Positions 2,333 to 25,640 of a stretch of 25,833 nt of DNA are shown in pieces; positions within the stretch are counted from its first letter, which is position 1; every line of letters begins with the position of its first letter. The position numbers were made by a program, and so were the translations under genes. This DNA is from a virus, in IMG/VR virus record IMGVR_UViG_3300032291_002242, positions 1 through 25,833 of that record; one strand, 5' to 3'. The notes under the pieces are model-generated. The model was not told the DNA's origin and searched no databases. It saw only the letters and a list, made by a program, of their open reading frames with translations.

Positions 2333-3280
2333 ATGAAAGCAATTCAAATCGCCGAGTTTGGCAGCCCCGATGTTATGAAATATGTTGAAATATCTGAGCC
2401 AGATATAAAACAAAATGAGATTATTCTTGATGTTGCTGCAATAGGCATCAACTACTCAGATACACATAAAACTGAAAACACATATCTTCTACCACAATCT
2501 TTGCCTATGATTCCTGGTATTGAAATTGTTGGAACTCATGATGGAATTCGCTACTTAGCAGTTGCATCATCTGGTGGATACGCACAAAAAGCAACTGCTC
2601 ACAGATCTCTTGTCTTTCTAATTCCTGATGGAGTTAGTGATGAAGAGGCGCTCTGCGTCTTAGTACAAGGAACAACTGCGTGGCATATATTAAAGACTAT
2701 GGGAAATGTACAAAAGAATCAATCTGTTGTTGTTCATGCAGCAGCAGGTGGCGTTGGAACAATTGCTATTCAGTTGGCCAAGATGTGGGGTGCTAAGGTA
2801 ATTGCCGTGACATCGTCTGACTCTAAAGGAGAATTAGCAAAATCACTTGGCGCAGATGTAGTAGTTGATGCAAACTCTAAACATCTTGGAAAGTCTATTC
2901 GACAAGCAAATGGTGGCACTGGCGTAGACCTAGTCCTTGAAATGGTTGGTGGTAAAACCTTTGATCAAAGCCTTTTTTCATTAGCCAATTTTGGAAAACT
3001 TATAACTTATGGTATGGCATCTCGTGTAGCCCCAACACCAATAAATCATCGTTCTCTTATATATGGGTCAAAAACAGTTTCAGGTTTCTGGCTTGCTAAT
3101 TGTTTTGGCAATAAGGAATTATTAAATGATGTAGTGGAAGAACTGTTTGATCTAGTGTTAGAAGGAAAAATAAAGCCAGTTATCGGGTCTACTTACCCAC
3201 TAAGCCAGGCAGCCGATGCTCATCGCTCAATGCTTACTCGTGAGTCTATAGGCAAAATCGTTCTAGATCCTGCATTATAA
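2333..3280 (+). CDS. NADPH:quinone oxidoreductase-like MDR enzyme
   Basis: A 315-residue zinc-independent medium-chain dehydrogenase/reductase. The N-terminal GroES-like domain (about 1-115) is followed by a Rossmann domain with AAAGGVGTIAIQLAK at 136-150, the nucleotide-binding loop typical of QOR-type enzymes using NADPH. No structural or catalytic zinc cysteines are seen. Family members reduce quinones or enones by hydride transfer. TATACT (2321-2326) is six bases before the ATG. It leads a run with the oxygenase and monooxygenase genes downstream and may supply redox chemistry to the same pathway. Such a full-length metabolic enzyme is unusual in a phage and could be host-derived. Confidence 0.85.
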   Translation: MKAIQIAEFGSPDVMKYVEISEPDIKQNEIILDVAAIGINYSDTHKTENTYLLPQSLPMIPGIEIVGTHDGIRYLAVASSGGYAQKATAHRSLVFLIPDGVSDEEALCVLVQGTTAWHILKTMGNVQKNQSVVVHAAAGGVGTIAIQLAKMWGAKVIAVTSSDSKGELAKSLGADVVVDANSKHLGKSIRQANGGTGVDLVLEMVGGKTFDQSLFSLANFGKLITYGMASRVAPTPINHRSLIYGSKTVSGFWLANCFGNKELLNDVVEELFDLVLEGKIKPVIGSTYPLSQAADAHRSMLTRESIGKIVLDPAL

Positions 3281-3302
3281 ATGAGTAGTGTATAATAGTT
3301 AT

Positions 3303-3911
3303 ATGCCATATATAGTTAACAATCAGCCTGTTGGACATGACCCAAGCGATATCGAAAGAAAACCATCGTATATGGAGTTTTTCGAAAAGATAGGAAACTC
3401 TCCAGATAACATAAAGGTTATACCAAACTTTCTTTCTGATAAAGAGATTAGATATCTTTTGTCACATATAGATGAAAGAAGAATGGTAAGTTTTGTTTCT
3501 CAAAAAGATAACGATGGCAATCCTGTTTCATGGATTCACAACTATGAAGGAATTCGTGACAAAGATAATGTAATCGGCAGGATATCTGATGAAATAAAAA
3601 AGGCATATCAGATTGAAAACATTGAGCCAAAAAGCGATAGACTAAATCTTGCAAGATGGGATGTAGGCACTAAACTAGGACTTCATGTTGATGATCTTGG
3701 TTATGTAACAGACAATCATTTGCCAACACTTGTTTATTTAAATGATAATTATGAAGGCGGAGAGTTGGGTTTTGCTACACATGGTTTTGTATTTAAACCT
3801 AAGAAGGGTGACCTAATCATGTTCCCTGGAAATATGCACTATGCACATGAAGTATTTGAAATTTTGTCTGGAACAAGATACACACTACCTATCTGGTTTA
3901 CAATACCGTAG
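3303..3911 (+). CDS. 2OG-Fe(II) oxygenase, prolyl-hydroxylase (P4Hc) type
   Basis: A 202-residue double-stranded beta-helix oxygenase. The iron triad is visible as H128 and D130 (GLHVDDLG) and distal H182 (YAHEV), and R192 (SGTRY) is placed to bind 2-oxoglutarate. The enzyme should hydroxylate a protein or small substrate, releasing succinate and CO2. The start is set at 3303, not at the in-frame GTG at 3288, because TATAAT (3291-3296) lies exactly six bases before this ATG and the longer reading would include the -10 box. It is homologous to the C-terminal domain of the fusion protein at 4182-5582, with only one small gene between them. Confidence 0.85.
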   Translation: MPYIVNNQPVGHDPSDIERKPSYMEFFEKIGNSPDNIKVIPNFLSDKEIRYLLSHIDERRMVSFVSQKDNDGNPVSWIHNYEGIRDKDNVIGRISDEIKKAYQIENIEPKSDRLNLARWDVGTKLGLHVDDLGYVTDNHLPTLVYLNDNYEGGELGFATHGFVFKPKKGDLIMFPGNMHYAHEVFEILSGTRYTLPIWFTIP

Positions 3912-3925
3912 GGTATAATTAAAGA

Positions 3926-4192
3926 ATGACAATCGGTCAAGAAGGACACACAAAAAAAAGAATACTATTAGATGGATCAGAAGTAAATGACTATGATTAT
4001 CCAATTGATTTAATATTACATACCAAGGCACCTGGAAAGTGGAAGTTGATAGATCTTGAGACTGGTCAAGAATATCTTGGGTCAGAGATTTCTCACGAAA
4101 CATTTGGAGAAATTTTAAGAAGTAAAGTAGCAAAGGCTAAGATAGGATCTTGGTTTAAAACAAAAGGAAGAGTAATAAAAAATGGAAAATAG
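3926..4192 (+). CDS. Conserved-looking 88-residue protein, unknown function
   Basis: A small soluble protein with an acidic first half (DGSEVNDYDYPIDL), a strand-rich middle (KWKLIDLETGQEYLG) and a basic C-terminus (KAKIGSWFKTKGRVIKNGK). No family is recognised. TATAAT (3914-3919) is six bases before the ATG. Its last 11 bases overlap the start of the monooxygenase fusion, so the two are translationally coupled. That suggests it may act as a partner or adaptor of the fusion protein. Confidence 0.6.
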   Translation: MTIGQEGHTKKRILLDGSEVNDYDYPIDLILHTKAPGKWKLIDLETGQEYLGSEISHETFGEILRSKVAKAKIGSWFKTKGRVIKNGK

Positions 4193-5582
4193 CAACAAGC
4201 CTATAACTTTTCACTGGATGTGGAGAAGACACTGGCAGGTAAATGACAGCACCGAACACTTAGATCTTAAAGGTATTCTTGGTATGGCACAAGAACTAGA
4301 TGGGGCAAATGTAAAGTCTGTATTGCTTCCTTATGGTCCAGGGGGTATTGATTTTTCATTAGTTATAAAAGAATCATTAGAAAAAACAAATCAACTAATA
4401 ATGACGATTGCTTTACCAGCATATGGAACAAGTCCTGACTATGCTGCTAAAATTGTTGATACTTTAAATAGGTTTGCACCTGGAAGAATTGGTGTAAATC
4501 TTGTTGCTGGAAGATGGGGAGATGAAGGAAATGGACCATCAGAGAAAATAGTTTTAGATCATTACATGCATGACTCAAGTCTTATTGATACCCTAGAGAA
4601 AAGAGTAGCAATATCTGCAGTCTGGATGGATAAGTTTATGGATTTAATGAGATTTCACAAGCATAAAACTCACATGGCTGTCGTTGGTTCTTCAGACACC
4701 ACAATTGAAATAGCAAACAAGCACTGTGAATATGCATATGTTGACGATAACTTGCTTTATAGCGATCAATTTAAGAAGATTAATCTTGATAAAGTAAAGC
4801 CAATAGTTATTATTGATCCGCTAATTATTAATAACCTAGATGATGAAAAAAATGTTAAGTATGATAAAAATGCACCAGTAAGAAGACAGAATCACCATGT
4901 AAAAGGAACGCTAGAACAAGTAAAGAGTCAAATAAGAAAAATATCTAGCAATTATGGAGTATATGATTTTATGATTCATACAGATCAAGAAGATATTAGC
5001 CAACTTCTTAAACTTGTTAAGGAGTTTAATGGAGAAGAGTTGAGCACGGTTAAGCCAAACCTAACACATGAAAACTTTTCCAAAATTGGAAGCAAGGCAG
5101 GCAATGTAAAAATATTTAATAATTATATTAGCAAAGAAGAATGTGAAAGCATAATAAGAATGATTAAAGAAACAGAGACAAGCAATGTAAGACCACTTCA
5201 ATCTCAAGCGCTATCCTTAGTCTATTATGACTCGCTCAATCTTCCAGAAAAGTATGTGCCTGGAGTACACGCTATGCTAGAAAAAGAATATGATGTTAAA
5301 GTAAAACCAAGACATGCTCGTTTTGCTGAGTGGATACATAACAGTAGTCAAACAATTCCTATCGACGACATGGGATCAAAAGATTCAAATCATATGGCTG
5401 GCTGGGTATATCTAAATGATGACTATCATGGCGGAGAGATTTCATTTATTAATCAAGACATATCTTTTAAACCAAAGGCTGGTGATCTGGTTATGTTTCC
5501 TGGAAATATGCACTATTGGTATAATGTTGGACCTGCAAATGGATCAAGATATATAATGCCTGTGTGGTTTGATTTTGTTTAA
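4182..5582 (+). CDS. Luciferase-like monooxygenase fused to a degenerate 2OG-oxygenase domain
   Basis: A 466-residue two-domain protein. Residues 1 to about 270 look like a bacterial luciferase/SsuD-type (FMN- or F420-dependent) TIM-barrel monooxygenase: LPYGPGGIDFSL, MTIALPAYGTSPDYAAK, then FAPGRIGVNLVAGRW. Residues about 300-466 align with the neighbouring P4Hc enzyme (KPKAGDLVMFPGNMHY, GSRYIMPVWF). In that alignment the first iron ligand is P393 instead of His, D395 is kept, and the distal His is Y447; R456 remains. The C-terminal domain is therefore probably not an iron oxygenase and may bind substrate. The start overlaps the 88-residue gene. I know of no standard family with this domain order. 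Confidence 0.8.
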   Translation: MENSNKPITFHWMWRRHWQVNDSTEHLDLKGILGMAQELDGANVKSVLLPYGPGGIDFSLVIKESLEKTNQLIMTIALPAYGTSPDYAAKIVDTLNRFAPGRIGVNLVAGRWGDEGNGPSEKIVLDHYMHDSSLIDTLEKRVAISAVWMDKFMDLMRFHKHKTHMAVVGSSDTTIEIANKHCEYAYVDDNLLYSDQFKKINLDKVKPIVIIDPLIINNLDDEKNVKYDKNAPVRRQNHHVKGTLEQVKSQIRKISSNYGVYDFMIHTDQEDISQLLKLVKEFNGEELSTVKPNLTHENFSKIGSKAGNVKIFNNYISKEECESIIRMIKETETSNVRPLQSQALSLVYYDSLNLPEKYVPGVHAMLEKEYDVKVKPRHARFAEWIHNSSQTIPIDDMGSKDSNHMAGWVYLNDDYHGGEISFINQDISFKPKAGDLVMFPGNMHYWYNVGPANGSRYIMPVWFDFV

Positions 5583-5724: not shown

Positions 5725-6267
5725 ATGAGTAATGACTTACCACCACACCTTCTAACATTTCCAAGAAGTGCTTCTCACTATTTTGATAGACTTGTTTATA
5801 ATAAAGTAGGATTTCATATAGAAAGATCTCATATAGTTAATCATTTATTTGATAAAGACAATAACAAAAAAAGAAGAATAGTTACAATAGTAAGAGACCC
5901 AATCGAAAGCATATCTTCTCTTGTAGCCTTAGAAAAATCTCTTGTCTCTAACTCTAATAGAGTAAATGAAATAGTGTCAGAGTATGTTTTGCTCTATAAT
6001 TTTTTGTATGAAAATGCAGACTATGTTATAGATTATCAAGATCTAACAAAATATCCAGACTTAGTGATTGATAAGATATTAAATCTGTTAGATATAAATA
6101 AAGAAAATTCTTTTAATTTTGTAACCGATATTGACTATAATAGTAAAAATTTTGTTGAATCAAGTAAAAGTTTGTCTGGCTACAAAGAAGTTAAATTAGA
6201 TAATCACAACATTGAACTTTGTTATTTTTATTATAATAAAATATTAAAAAATAAAATAATAATTTAA
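5725..6267 (+). CDS. Sulfotransferase-like protein (copy 2)
   Basis: A 180-residue paralog of the gene at 1014-1565. LTFPRSASHYFDRLVY near residue 9 is the PAPS 5'-phosphosulfate loop; VTIVRDPIES near residue 53 is the 3'-phosphate element. A conserved I-D-Y element (YVIDYQDL, compare IIIDYDRL) follows in both copies. The C-terminal third is AT-rich and lysine/asparagine-rich and is more diverged. It is translated right after the zinc gene (spacing one base). The product would sulfate an unknown acceptor. The short length suggests a phage-specific minimal sulfotransferase, or loss of activity. Confidence 0.65.
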   Translation: MSNDLPPHLLTFPRSASHYFDRLVYNKVGFHIERSHIVNHLFDKDNNKKRRIVTIVRDPIESISSLVALEKSLVSNSNRVNEIVSEYVLLYNFLYENADYVIDYQDLTKYPDLVIDKILNLLDINKENSFNFVTDIDYNSKNFVESSKSLSGYKEVKLDNHNIELCYFYYNKILKNKIII

Positions 6268-6307: not shown

Positions 6308-6595
6308 ATGGAACAATGGATAAACGACTATGCCTCATGGGTGCTTGCCTTTAGCGGTGTTGCAGCAATATATTTTGTTGGCAGAAAACAAATATGGGCA
6401 TGGATATGGGCTACCTGTAATGAGGCTATGTGGATTTACTATGCTATAGTAACAAAGCAATATGGCTTTATCTTTGCTGCTATCGCTTACTCTATTGTTT
6501 ATGTTAAATCATATAGACATTGGAAAAGATTAGACTCAGATCGTTTATCTTGGAGAATTTTTACCAAATTACTTTGGGATAGTGATCATAAATAA
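6308..6595 (+). CDS. PnuC-like small membrane protein
   Basis: A 95-residue, tryptophan-rich membrane protein with about three hydrophobic segments (8-24, 29-47, 52-67). WIWATCNEAMWIYYAI resembles the core repeat of PnuC nicotinamide riboside/mononucleotide transporters. It is about half or less of a full PnuC, so it would have to work as an oligomer or is a relic. PnuC-like proteins take up NAD precursors; the P-loop kinase/nucleotidyltransferase at 16043-16804 could be a functional partner. It has its own consensus promoter, giving a leaderless mRNA. Confidence 0.6.
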   Translation: MEQWINDYASWVLAFSGVAAIYFVGRKQIWAWIWATCNEAMWIYYAIVTKQYGFIFAAIAYSIVYVKSYRHWKRLDSDRLSWRIFTKLLWDSDHK

Positions 6596-13713: not shown

Positions 13714-13995
13714 TTACTCCATTGTTAATGATTGCCATGTCATTCCCCAGTCATTTTTGCTCTTGTGATTAGAAAACTCTTTTGATATTTCTCCATTTTC
13801 TAAGTATACACCACCCCAGACACCCCACTCTTTTCCTGAAATCCCAACAGAAAAACATTCTTTTCTCACTGGACAAGAAAAACATAGCGCATCAATCGCT
13901 GGTCTTAGCAGTTCGTCATCCTCATACTTTTCAAAAAATATATTTGTATCGTAGTCTAAACAAAGAGCACTGTCTTTCCATTTAAATCTATTCAT
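13714..13995 (-). CDS. whiB: WhiB-like iron-sulfur transcription regulator
   Basis: A 93-residue WhiB protein: first cysteine at ALCLDYD, the CFSCPVRKEC cluster that supplies three more ligands to the 4Fe-4S centre, and GVWGGVYLENG with the conserved G-V-W-G-G turn. The usual basic AT-hook-like tail is weak: only scattered lysines follow. WhiB-like proteins bind the host principal sigma factor and are found only in actinobacteria and their phages, so this gene is the best host marker in the window. Phage copies can compete with host WhiB regulators. Confidence 0.9.
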   Translation of the reverse strand: MNRFKWKDSALCLDYDTNIFFEKYEDDELLRPAIDALCFSCPVRKECFSVGISGKEWGVWGGVYLENGEISKEFSNHKSKNDWGMTWQSLTME

Positions 13996-16042: not shown

Positions 16043-16804
16043 TTAAATACCCAACTGCTTGCGTTTTTCAGTAGCCGAAATAGCATGAATGTCTGCCCCC
16101 AAATCTACTTGTTCAATCTTGTATCCTACATCTCTTCCATATACAATGTTGGTAATGTTAGGTAGTCTTAGTACTAATGCCCCGTCCATAAAATCATCCT
16201 TGGCAATATACTCTTTTACCTGATCAAACTTAAGTGGATCCTTCTCGCTTGTATTGTAGGTATTGCGGACTCCAAGAAGTACTTGGTCAGTTCTCTTACC
16301 TGCTTCCTTGTAAAGGGCATGGTGGCCCTCGTGCCAAGGCTGGTACCTACCTAGCATAAGTGTTGTAGGTGCAGACCAGTCATGTAGGTTAAACTGATTA
16401 ATGATTACCGATGCCTTTTCATTTGCATCCCATTCATGGCTTATAAAAGCAATGTCATAGTTTGTTGGCATTTCAAACATCTTGTTGGTGTCTTCAAATC
16501 TTCCTTCTTCAATAGTGTTCATGAATACCAAAATGTCTGGCTTTCCAAATGTTGTACGAGTTAAATCTGTTGGGCAAACAAAATCAACGATTACTGGAGC
16601 AACTCCTTGCTTAGCAATTAGCCTTGCCATCTCCCCCATACGACGAGCCTGCTCAAGTCTATCTTCTGGCGTAAAGCCTAAGTCTGAATTGACTGTTGCA
16701 CGAACTTCATCTGCATTAAGATGAATAGCGTTAATTCTTTCTTTGAGTGCCTTGGATAACTCTGTCTTTCCTGAACCTGGAAGACCTATAATCTGAATAA
16801 TCAT
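16043..16804 (-). CDS. P-loop kinase fused to nucleotidyltransferase
   Basis: A 253-residue two-domain enzyme. The N-terminal domain (1 to about 135) is an adenylylsulfate-kinase-like P-loop kinase: GLPGSGKT at 7-14, NADEVR near 30 and DLGFTPEDRLEQARR near 41. The C-terminal domain (from about 146) is a nucleotidyltransferase with GRYQPWHEGHHAL (H158-x-G-H161) and ISATEKR near 242, the HxGH/ISTxxR signatures of the NMN/pantetheine adenylyltransferase superfamily. The order is opposite to NadR (transferase then kinase). A role in NAD salvage with the PnuC-like protein at 6308, or in making an activated sugar or sulfur donor, is possible. Its end overlaps the small gene at 15949. Confidence 0.8.
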   Translation of the reverse strand: MIIQIIGLPGSGKTELSKALKERINAIHLNADEVRATVNSDLGFTPEDRLEQARRMGEMARLIAKQGVAPVIVDFVCPTDLTRTTFGKPDILVFMNTIEEGRFEDTNKMFEMPTNYDIAFISHEWDANEKASVIINQFNLHDWSAPTTLMLGRYQPWHEGHHALYKEAGKRTDQVLLGVRNTYNTSEKDPLKFDQVKEYIAKDDFMDGALVLRLPNITNIVYGRDVGYKIEQVDLGADIHAISATEKRKQLGI

Positions 16805-18918: not shown

Positions 18919-18947
18919 ATTATACCAGTTTACCTGCATATTGTAAA
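18919..18947 (-). promoter_or_regulatory. Endolysin promoter
   Basis: On the minus strand: TTTACA (18947-18942), 17 bp, TATAAT (18924-18919). A short leader of about 20 bases contains AGGAGG. The promoter lies in the last codons and just after the stop of the carbamoyltransferase gene. Confidence 0.75.
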
Positions 18948-20354
18948 GTTGTATTCTTTTTCCCATTTAAGGATATCGCTTTCATCGTTCAAAAGTGGCT
19001 GACCTTTTATATTAAGGCTAGTATTCAAAAGCACTGGCACTCCAGTCTGGAGATAGAACTTGTTTATTACTCTATATAGACCTGGGTGCTGCTCTCTAGT
19101 AACTGTCTGTACTCTAGAAGTTCCATCCTCATGTACCACAGAAGGAATCTTATCTGGTTTCAAACACTTTACTGTATATTGCATATACGGACTTTCAAAG
19201 TCCATATCAAACCATTTGTTGGCATGGTCTGCCAAAACCACTGGAGCAAAAGGTCTAAACAACTCTCTCTGTTTAATTCTATTTACTTTGTCTTTAATAA
19301 GTGGATCTCTTGGATCTGCAAGGATTGATCTATTTCCTAATGCTCTGGGACCGTATTCTGCTTTACCTGATGCTACTGCTACTATTCCATCCTTCAATAT
19401 GCCGTCCACAATTTTTTGAATTGGATAACTACCGCCTAAGTCATAACCAAGATATGGACTTTTCCATTCTATATGCTTGCCATAGAGCGCTGCTGCAGCA
19501 CCCAAAGAACTTCCCGCATCTCCTGGATTTGGCATAATCCAAACCATGTCAAATATATTCCACAGCAATGTGTTGGCTGATGAATTAAGAGCACACCCAC
19601 CCATGAATACAAGATTCTTTTTGCCAGTAATAGACTTAGCCATACGCATAAAATCATTTAATCTTTGCTCATAAACAACTTGAACTGCTGCAGCAATGTC
19701 AAACTTGTCTTGCTCCGACTCAATCCATCCCCAATCATGTATGCCCTTATGAAAGTTATATTTCTGTTGATCGTAAGAAAGAAAGTATTCATTAACTTTT
19801 TTATAGTATTTTGTCCAGTCCCCGTAAGCAGCCATACCCATCATAATGTATTCTTCTTGGTTTGGCATAAGTCCAATTAGTTGTGTAAAGGCTGAATAAA
19901 ATAATCCAAAACTAGTAGGATAGTTTTGCTTATACTTTAACTTTATCTTGTCACCCTCTCCAACCCAAATTGTTGAAGTGTTGTATTCCCCAATTGCATC
20001 TAAAACAACAATTACAGCATCATTAAATGCACTTGTATAATATCCTGCTGCTGCGTGAGAATAGTGATGGCTAAAAGATTTTCTTGGCACACCCTCTATA
20101 TTAAACCTTGGCTTCCAGTCTCCTGCACCACCCCTTAAAGCCAGCCTAGAGGCCTTTAGGAGGGGTTTTTCATAGTAGGCAATGTGATCTGGTCTTCCAT
20201 ACTGCAATGCATCTTTTACTAAACTATCATTCACATACCAGTCATTTTTTTGTTTGCTATATCTTTCTGCATGCCCTGCAAAAAGTATTTCTCCATCTTT
20301 TATTAAAGAAACTGATGCATCATGAGATGTCTCATTTACTCCAAGGATTATCAT
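18930..20354 (-). CDS. NodU/TobZ-type carbamoyltransferase
   Basis: A 474-residue, full-length enzyme. The N-terminal Kae1/TsaD-like ATPase-like domain has GVNETSHDAS at its start and the metal-binding HHYSHAAAGYYTS (96-108). GGCALNSSAN and PNPGDAGSSLGAA follow. The C-terminal domain has GPRALGNRSILADPRD and FRPFAPVVL. It would transfer carbamoyl from carbamoyl phosphate (via carbamoyl-AMP) to a hydroxyl group of a sugar or small molecule. The last gene of a six-gene minus-strand operon, 19 bases after the P4H-like gene. A hydroxylase upstream could create the acceptor hydroxyl. Confidence 0.9.
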   Translation of the reverse strand: MIILGVNETSHDASVSLIKDGEILFAGHAERYSKQKNDWYVNDSLVKDALQYGRPDHIAYYEKPLLKASRLALRGGAGDWKPRFNIEGVPRKSFSHHYSHAAAGYYTSAFNDAVIVVLDAIGEYNTSTIWVGEGDKIKLKYKQNYPTSFGLFYSAFTQLIGLMPNQEEYIMMGMAAYGDWTKYYKKVNEYFLSYDQQKYNFHKGIHDWGWIESEQDKFDIAAAVQVVYEQRLNDFMRMAKSITGKKNLVFMGGCALNSSANTLLWNIFDMVWIMPNPGDAGSSLGAAAALYGKHIEWKSPYLGYDLGGSYPIQKIVDGILKDGIVAVASGKAEYGPRALGNRSILADPRDPLIKDKVNRIKQRELFRPFAPVVLADHANKWFDMDFESPYMQYTVKCLKPDKIPSVVHEDGTSRVQTVTREQHPGLYRVINKFYLQTGVPVLLNTSLNIKGQPLLNDESDILKWEKEYNFTICR

Positions 20355-20372: not shown

Positions 20373-20936
20373 TTAATTGAGGTCTGGATCAACAATTGTA
20401 TACCCCTCTGGGTGCTCTGTCTGTGTTGTATGCATATAAAGAAGGGTTGTTCTTTTGCCACTTTCTATTTGAGATATACCATGTCTCCACAAATCTCCAT
20501 CACTTAAGAAAAATATACCATCATATTTTTCTGGCTTGTATGTAAAATTAATACCTGGGAAATATAAATCTCCTCCAGTAAAGTCATCATCAAGATATAT
20601 TACAGTGCTATACTCAATAAACTCTTCTGGTGGCTGATCATCAATATGAGGATTTGCCGAACTGCCTTGTGTCCAGACTGAGCCAAAGGACTTAAATGTT
20701 TTTATTTGTTTTGTTTCTTCTGGGTTTAGTCTTTGATGCACATCGTTAGACAATAGAGAATATTTTTTTTGAATGTCTAAGACTGTCTTGTTATACGGAT
20801 AGGCAGTTCCGCCATACCTTGTCTTATAGTATTCTGGATATGGATTAACCTCTGATGGACTTTTAATCTCATCTATTAGTATCTGTGAATCCTCAGCAGT
20901 AATAAAGTTTTTAATTATAATTGGTGTTGTTATCAT
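20373..20936 (-). CDS. 2OG-Fe(II) oxygenase, P4Hc type
   Basis: A 187-residue enzyme. PHIDDQ gives H97 and D99, WRHGIS gives distal H152, and SGKRTTLLY gives R162 for 2-oxoglutarate; IYLDDDFTGGDLYFPG is the typical core. All catalytic residues are present. It would hydroxylate a protein or small-molecule substrate. The ATG overlaps the stop of the glycosyltransferase gene, so the two are coupled. Compared with the gene at 3303 it is a distant relative, not a recent duplicate. Confidence 0.85.
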   Translation of the reverse strand: MITTPIIIKNFITAEDSQILIDEIKSPSEVNPYPEYYKTRYGGTAYPYNKTVLDIQKKYSLLSNDVHQRLNPEETKQIKTFKSFGSVWTQGSSANPHIDDQPPEEFIEYSTVIYLDDDFTGGDLYFPGINFTYKPEKYDGIFFLSDGDLWRHGISQIESGKRTTLLYMHTTQTEHPEGYTIVDPDLN

Positions 20937-24002: not shown

Positions 24003-24881
24003 TTAGTTACGAATGTATGATGCAGCACCAATTAAAATCTTTGGAAGAGAAGTTAGATACTCCCCAAATGTTTTAAAGGTATTGCGATTTACATATGATG
24101 CTGCTGAAATTACTGTTGCTACAGAACTTCCAGAAGTTTTTAGTTCTGAACCATTATATTTTGTAACAGTTACACGACCAGGTGCTACTATATCAAGTCC
24201 AGGACCTGTATTTGTTGCTGGCTCTAGTTGTGTTTCGTTTCCAAGTGCACCTACGCCAATTGCCCCATTGACACAAGAAGGAAATCCAACCACATCTCGT
24301 CGACGGTCATTTCCTGTTGCAACAAATACTGGAATATTATTAGAGGTTAGAGATGAAATAGAATTGATAGTTCTAACATCTTTTGAGCATCGATCAAGAG
24401 CAAGGCTTGATTGGCTAACTGATACGGCGTCAATACTATACTTTGATGCATTTTGCGATACCCATTCAAGTGCTAAGTCAATTGTGCGGTTAGAAAATTG
24501 ATTAGTTCCGCCAGACTTTTCCATATTTGCAATTCTTACAAACACAATCTTAAGGTTAGGATTAACTGTTAATGCAGCCTTAACCATTGTGTCTCCGTGG
24601 AAAACGCCATTACTCCACCCGCTAGTTGGCCATACTGAGTTTCCCGCTGCGCCTTTGCCTTCCATAAAAGTGCTACCGTTTGGACATAGTACGGACCCAC
24701 CGAATTTCAGAGCAAAGGAATCATTTGCCGTAAAGCATGCTTCTTGAATGATTGATGGAAAGTTATTTGAGTTAATTGCAGAGTCAATAATTGCAAGAAC
24801 CTTTTGATCTTCTGCTTGTGCTGGCTGTGTTACTGTTATTAGTAGTGCTGCTGATAGTAGTGCTAGTAGTGTTTTTTTCAT
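24003..24881 (-). CDS. Secreted subtilisin-like serine protease (S8)
   Basis: A 292-residue protein. A signal peptide (MKKTLLALLSAALLITV, cleavage near QPAQA-E) is followed directly by the catalytic domain, with no propeptide visible. D33 (AIIDSAIN), H95 (FHGDTMV), oxyanion N191 (VATGNDRR) and S253 (TSGSSVATVISAAS) make the S8 set. The enzyme should be exported by the Sec route and act outside the host membrane. AAAGGA precedes the ATG. A secreted subtilase is unusual for a phage; host envelope remodelling or attack on competitors are possible roles. Confidence 0.85.
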   Translation of the reverse strand: MKKTLLALLSAALLITVTQPAQAEDQKVLAIIDSAINSNNFPSIIQEACFTANDSFALKFGGSVLCPNGSTFMEGKGAAGNSVWPTSGWSNGVFHGDTMVKAALTVNPNLKIVFVRIANMEKSGGTNQFSNRTIDLALEWVSQNASKYSIDAVSVSQSSLALDRCSKDVRTINSISSLTSNNIPVFVATGNDRRRDVVGFPSCVNGAIGVGALGNETQLEPATNTGPGLDIVAPGRVTVTKYNGSELKTSGSSVATVISAASYVNRNTFKTFGEYLTSLPKILIGAASYIRN

Positions 24882-25115: not shown

Positions 25116-25640
25116 CTAAAGGCTAACAATGTCAACTGGACCCATGCATGACGGGTTAAATTTAATAGCAGCATTTACTGCTTGCATTACTCTGTTTCTT
25201 GCATTTTTTTGTTTATCTGTTGCGTATAAAACACCGTATGCGTATTCTGCACCAGATCCCATAGCAAGATATGGCAGTGTATATTTAGATAAAGACATAT
25301 CTGCAGAACTGTGCTCATAGATTTCTCCACGAACCGCAATAATCAAACCAAGATCTCCGTCTTTTGATGTGTCTACCCAGAACTCGTTATAAAATTCACG
25401 AAGTTCTTTTACAAACCTAGTTTGCATAAACTTGTCTGTGTCTTTAATGTTGGGAGGAGTTGGTTTAAAATTATAACGGATTCTTTCTCCGTCCATCGCC
25501 CCTGCATATCCAATTAGGTATGGACCTATCTTCCAAACTTTTGGAGCAGATAGTGCTAAAATAGTACCATCATCTGATGCTCCACGATCTCCAGCCATAT
25601 AAATTTTATCTTCATGTTTTACAACAGCAATGCAAGTCAC
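25116..25640 (-). CDS. Proteasome-beta/HslV-like NTN hydrolase
   Basis: A 174-residue protein. T2 (MTCIAVV) is the N-terminal nucleophile after Met removal, D18 (AGDRGASD) and K34 (APKVWKIG) are the supporting catalytic residues of proteasome-type peptidases, and MGSGAEYAYGVLYAT fits the later conserved helix. It has no propeptide. GTG is the start. Phages of actinobacteria sometimes carry such proteasome-like proteins; the substrates and any partner ATPase are unknown. It lies close to the promoter at 25674-25703. Confidence 0.85.
   Translation of the reverse strand: MTCIAVVKHEDKIYMAGDRGASDDGTILALSAPKVWKIGPYLIGYAGAMDGERIRYNFKPTPPNIKDTDKFMQTRFVKELREFYNEFWVDTSKDGDLGLIIAVRGEIYEHSSADMSLSKYTLPYLAMGSGAEYAYGVLYATDKQKNARNRVMQAVNAAIKFNPSCMGPVDIVSL

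Follow-up and report, generated by a model that had tools for sequence, protein, structure and literature searches.

The closest described relatives of the protein considered here are, for its N-terminal domain, the alkanesulfonate monooxygenases SsuD and MsuD, which are group C two-component FMN enzymes, and, for its C-terminal domain, the prolyl hydroxylases, including P3H1, the chlorella-virus PBCV-1 enzyme vCPH, PHD2 and Pseudomonas P4H. In MsuD, residues N104 and V106 line a proposed dioxygen pocket, the FMN phosphate is bound by H123, Y127, S177 and S178, with R126 nearby, and RGGA is the motif of the sulfonate-binding loop (PMC8234197). A precedent for the retention of a dead oxygenase fold beside a live one comes from OGFOD1, Tpa1p and Ofd1; the second DSBH of OGFOD1 and Tpa1p is metal-free, packs against the live one and has been suggested as a binding site for substrate or partners (PMC4396695). 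The locus described here shares this principle, but whereas both DSBHs of those proteins lie in one chain, here the dead DSBH follows a luciferase-like monooxygenase (LLM) domain and the live hydroxylase is encoded by a separate gene.

The window, by which we mean the whole 25.8-kb stretch of DNA that was analysed, is an IMG/VR virus record. The genes and domains of interest are as follows:

2333 to 3280, plus strand: quinone-oxidoreductase-like dehydrogenase (Pfam ADH_zinc_N, 6.1e-31), a neighbour outside the conserved module
3288 to 3911, plus strand: P4H, a prolyl-4-hydroxylase-type 2OG/Fe(II) oxygenase of 207 aa with a complete HxD...H...R set (Pfam 2OG-FeII_Oxy_3, 8.3e-11); the start codon is GTG 3288 or ATG 3303
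3926 to 4192, plus strand: P88, an 88-aa protein (phrog_4098, 8.9e-8), the 3' end of whose ORF shares 11 nt with the start of the fusion
4182 to 5582, plus strand: LLM-psOG fusion, 466 aa
4182 to 5027, plus strand: LLM (TIM-barrel) domain, residues 1-282 of the fusion
5064 to 5579, plus strand: psOG (pseudo-2OG) domain, residues 295-466 of the fusion

The first-pass annotation had read the frame at 4182-5582 as a luciferase-like monooxygenase fused to a 2OG-oxygenase fold. Indeed, the N-terminal domain matched the NCBIfam alkanesulfonate monooxygenase models (3.5e-7), the C-terminal domain matched Pfam 2OG-FeII_Oxy_3 (3.4e-7, residues 401-463), and comparison with known folds, described below, gave the same answer. 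Candidate stretches encoding a relative numbered 136, and IMG/VR contained 74 distinct full-length LLM-psOG fusions. At a further eight loci (L111, L112, L121, L180 and L189-L192) the two domains were encoded by separate, overlapping genes, which shows that psOG is retained next to the LLM even as a protein of its own; one additional copy (L187) was frameshifted. The 74 distinct fusions and eight clean two-gene loci rule out an assembly or sequencing error as the source of the fusion.

The association between these genes proved to be extremely tight. psOG lay behind the LLM in 83/83 testable LLM types and, in an independent scan seeded with psOG alone, the LLM was directly upstream in 77/77 loci, many of them on contigs that were already known. 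P88 was adjacent to the LLM in all 87 distinct LLM types, mostly with overlaps of 8-17 nt, and a P4H gene lay within 3 kb upstream in each of the 54 testable types. P4H, P88 and LLM-psOG thus form an obligate gene set. The quinone oxidoreductase, which the earlier annotation had included in the upstream group, is present in the window but was found within 3 kb upstream in only 1/54 types and can be discounted as a module member; the co-occurrence of P4H and P88, which that annotation had proposed as a check, was borne out.

We turn now to the LLM domain, which had no Pfam match. Against the PDB its best sequence match was SsuD (1m41/1nqk; 3.8e-4 with one sequence, 3.4e-5 with a profile). An AlphaFold2 model of the full-length fusion (51 relatives; pLDDT 80.7, pTM 0.58) comprised a TIM barrel and, behind it, a domain rich in beta structure, the mutual placement of the two not being given by the model at this pTM. 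The predicted barrel matched group C flavin monooxygenases with Z about 22 (for 3sdo, Z 22.5 over 263 aligned residues, rmsd 3.1 Å), with values of about 21 for SsuD/MsuD; FMN-type and F420-type structures reached similar scores. Residue comparison, for which one SsuD-LLM alignment that misplaces the C-terminal half was used in its first half only, indicated that the counterparts of MsuD N104, V106, H123, R126, S177 and S178 are all retained. They include two short stretches:

4497 to 4505, plus strand: N106-L-V108 of the LLM, aligned with MsuD dioxygen-pocket residues N104/V106
4689 to 4694, plus strand: S170-S171 of the LLM, aligned with MsuD FMN-phosphate residues S177/S178

N106, V108, R141, S170 and S171 were invariant in the 74 fusions and H127 nearly so. 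The pairing of H127 and R141 with MsuD H123 and R126 spans an 11-residue insertion, and MsuD Y127, which also binds the FMN phosphate, is replaced by Val (V142). Since the FMN and oxygen-pocket residues of MsuD are matched in the LLM, its cofactor is most likely FMN rather than F420. In contrast to SsuD and MsuD, however, the phage domain is fused to psOG and falls short of SsuD in length by about 100 residues, and no flavin reductase was recognised beside the module. The window fusion protein also contains no RGGA string, which makes alkanesulfonates improbable as substrates; the profile alignment with MsuD ends ahead of the W195/R225 region of that enzyme. The segment lost relative to SsuD may have been replaced, as a cover for the flavin site, by psOG or P88.

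Modelled alone (85 relatives), psOG gave a confident structure (pLDDT 92.9, pTM 0.89) that resembled P3H1 (Z 15.8), PBCV-1 vCPH (15.6) and PHD2 (about 15). The domain therefore shares with the prolyl hydroxylases their fold (Z 15-16) and a 2OG-type arginine but, in contrast to them, every psOG lacks a complete iron triad. In alignments of the window proteins, H133, D135, H187 and R197 of P4H corresponded to P393, D395, Y447 and R456 of the fusion, just as had been noted from the sequence at the outset:

5358 to 5360, plus strand: P393, the position of the lost first iron histidine
5364 to 5366, plus strand: D395, the iron aspartate position, kept in the window and Asn in some relatives
5520 to 5522, plus strand: Y447, the position of the lost distal iron histidine
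5547 to 5549, plus strand: R456, the 2OG C5-carboxylate-type arginine, about 10 residues past the distal ligand

Not one of the 74 distinct full-length fusions carried the HxD...H triad, and in the first set all 62 psOG rows were likewise without a complete triad. Reading positions 393, 395 and 447 in turn, the combinations were PDY (41), SDY (8), HNH (7), RDY (6), ADY (4), PNY (4), PNH (2), LDH (1) and QDH (1), that is, nine broken triads and never HDH. The variety of these triads shows that each of the three ligand positions changed independently of the others. R456, on the other hand, was present in 74/74 fusions, and W384 and Y410 were also invariant. In the neighbouring 2OG oxygenases, with extra paralogues counted, H, D, H and R were complete in 84 of 84 distinct sequences. 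A shift of the distal ligand to H448 or H444 was ruled out, both positions being variable. Finally, dN/dS was 0.175 for psOG, 0.22 for P4H, 0.11 for the LLM and 0.077 for P88. Since the psOG value of about 0.17 is like that of the live P4H, these data support the view that psOG is a maintained pseudo-oxygenase and not a decaying one, and the original suggestion of a pseudo-oxygenase domain coupled to a monooxygenase is strengthened by the incomplete triads, the purifying selection and the kept arginine.

The fusions fall into two clades. In clade A, which includes the window, the first histidine is lost in all and the distal histidine in nearly all, D395 is kept in most, and H386 and H404 are both present in 64/65. 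In clade B (L116 and L199-L214) the distal histidine is kept, and either the aspartate has become Asn or the first histidine is missing; both histidine positions are kept with Asp to Asn in 7/9 distinct sequences. Between clades the LLM is 79% identical and psOG, the fastest-diverging part of the fusion, 38%; the psOG of one clade is no closer to that of the other than either is to clade B P4H. Trees placed the two psOG clades in one group (99/92), each on a long branch, but when one was omitted the other fell near the clade B P4Hs or was unresolved. In the LLM, clades A and B are about 90% identical up to residue 188 and about 58% identical beyond it, and L116 is a mosaic; to judge from these sequences, recombination within the LLM is visible and blurs the question of psOG origin. 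With long branches as well, the trees fit neither one origin nor two decisively. Loss of the iron site may have occurred on more than one occasion, in which case selection would have favoured the dead domain.

The results suggest a model that we hold with about as much confidence as doubt, in which an FMN-dependent monooxygenase uses an iron-dead prolyl-hydroxylase fold as an arm for binding substrate or partner, alongside a live P4H and P88. The N-terminal barrel would be a compact luciferase-like and probably FMN-dependent monooxygenase, fed reduced flavin by the host. psOG, its iron site gone, would serve as a binding domain that keeps a polypeptide substrate close to the flavin site or else provides a docking point there for the active P4H, P88 or both. 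P4H, P88 and LLM-psOG would then work together in the oxidative modification of a shared target, for which P88 itself is a candidate. FMN use, a physical complex, a binding role for psOG, a common substrate and a polypeptide target are all elements that we infer, the prolyl-hydroxylase fold being the one feature that points to a polypeptide. What leads us to a binding arm is the loss of the triad in every fusion beside intact neighbours, the selection on psOG, the obligate linkage and the existence of both fused and split forms. Against it stand the lack of a recognised flavin reductase beside the module, the position of the clade B P4H gene, 1.4-2.0 kb away and often with another gene between, the possibility of weak metal binding in the clade B sequences that keep both histidines, and the invariant arginine, which equally fits a sensor that binds 2OG.

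In such a sensor the retained arginine would bind 2OG or a related acid without iron, and the flavin monooxygenase would be gated by metabolic state. The invariance of R456, W384 and Y410 would be explained, and an effect on host 2OG levels has been proposed for cyanophage 2OG oxygenases (PMC3037559). However, the arginine and its neighbours may simply persist for folding. In active 2OG enzymes the metal also chelates 2OG, and no such sensor accompanying an LLM is known to us; on balance we consider a sensing role unlikely. We feel much the same about a scheme in which psOG is the dimerisation partner of the active P4H, a pseudo-subunit paired with a catalytic one, such that the fusion ties hydroxylase to monooxygenase. 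psOG and P4H are homologues that were always found together, both evolve faster than the LLM and P88, and OGFOD1 and Tpa1p offer examples of such packing, but the distance of the P4H gene in clade B speaks against a pairing of this kind.

The binding-arm model can be extended, doubtfully, to a phage-borne protein-modification machine in which P88 is a ribosomally made substrate or carrier that is hydroxylated by P4H and then oxidised further by the flavin monooxygenase, with the iron-dead domain as the substrate-holding arm. P88 is the most constrained member of the module and gave no convincing match to the PDB. A stretch of about 50 residues is shared (43-45% identity) with the C-terminal tail of NTP-transferases of T4-like phages (RB69 ORF53_52c-type, phrog_4098, L128, L129). 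RB69 ORF53_52c is a candidate for making the arabinosyl-hmC sugar nucleotide in DNA modification (PMC6024577); the stretch forms the C-terminus of that 561-aa protein, whereas P88 is a free protein.

It seems very unlikely that psOG still binds metal through an altered ligand set and is catalytic. The H-x-N...H arrangement of seven distinct clade B sequences, and the frequent D395, H386 and H404 of clade A, could be taken in its favour, but no histidine of psOG is invariant across both clades, the ligand positions have been lost in differing combinations, and a counterpart of H404 is present in many intact P4Hs, which argues against H404 as a new ligand. That psOG is a decaying passenger without function can be given hardly any credence, since, for all its lost iron site and rapid divergence between clades, its dN/dS is low, it is open in 74/74 fusions and in the split genes, and it was never lost in the 83 testable types.

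Under our favoured model of a binding arm, psOG looks like a dead enzyme turned to new use for holding or docking. None of the named phages and bacterial genomes that were searched had the module. Many 2OG oxygenases of aquatic phages have no known substrate, and here a fixed partner set of P4H, P88, flavin-type monooxygenase and dead oxygenase domain makes both substrate and complex testable with few proteins. The module also provides a clear natural example of selection maintaining a 2OG-oxygenase fold whose iron site is lost, in genomes that encode many intact paralogues as well; this dead fold is, moreover, joined to an oxygenase of an unrelated class.

The carriers appear to form a large group of uncultured actinobacterial viruses. 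The window encodes a WhiB-like transcription factor (13714-13995, minus strand; 3.6e-11), as do ten of ten large member contigs, and whiB has been termed a key indicator of actinophages (PMC10202952); the hosts are therefore probably actinobacteria. One 113-kb member encodes a 2829-aa tape measure protein, terminase, portal, DNA polymerase and ribonucleotide reductase. Matches to the fusion numbered five to nine per large contig, and almost all were paralogues of the 2OG type. A search of ten large contigs for the T4-type capsid protein Gp23 gave no match, but the control was silent too. No named phage had this LLM, only generic SsuD relatives being matched, and peptide-pattern scans of GTDB genomes found no relative and so lent no support to a bacterial origin, the patterns being narrow enough for distant relatives to escape.

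Several other genes deserve mention. Some members, from both clades, have a tryptophan-halogenase-like gene close to the module, namely L258 (L258:1836-3425) and the loci L073, L126, L150, L184, L188, L193, L196, L204, L205 and L207. The window itself has many group-transfer and oxidation genes, among them two weak sulfotransferase-like genes, a carbamoyltransferase and another intact 2OG oxygenase (1014-1565, 5725-6267, 18930-20354 and 20373-20936). A PnuC-like transporter (6308-6595, plus strand; just below cut-off) possibly forms an NAD salvage pair with a P-loop kinase (16043-16804, minus strand), part of which is weakly cytidylyltransferase-like. A subtilase-family protease with an apparent signal peptide is encoded at 24003-24881 (minus strand), and the product of 25116-25640 (minus strand) has a weak proteasome-subunit match, just above the Pfam cut-off, making it a possible phage-borne Ntn hydrolase.
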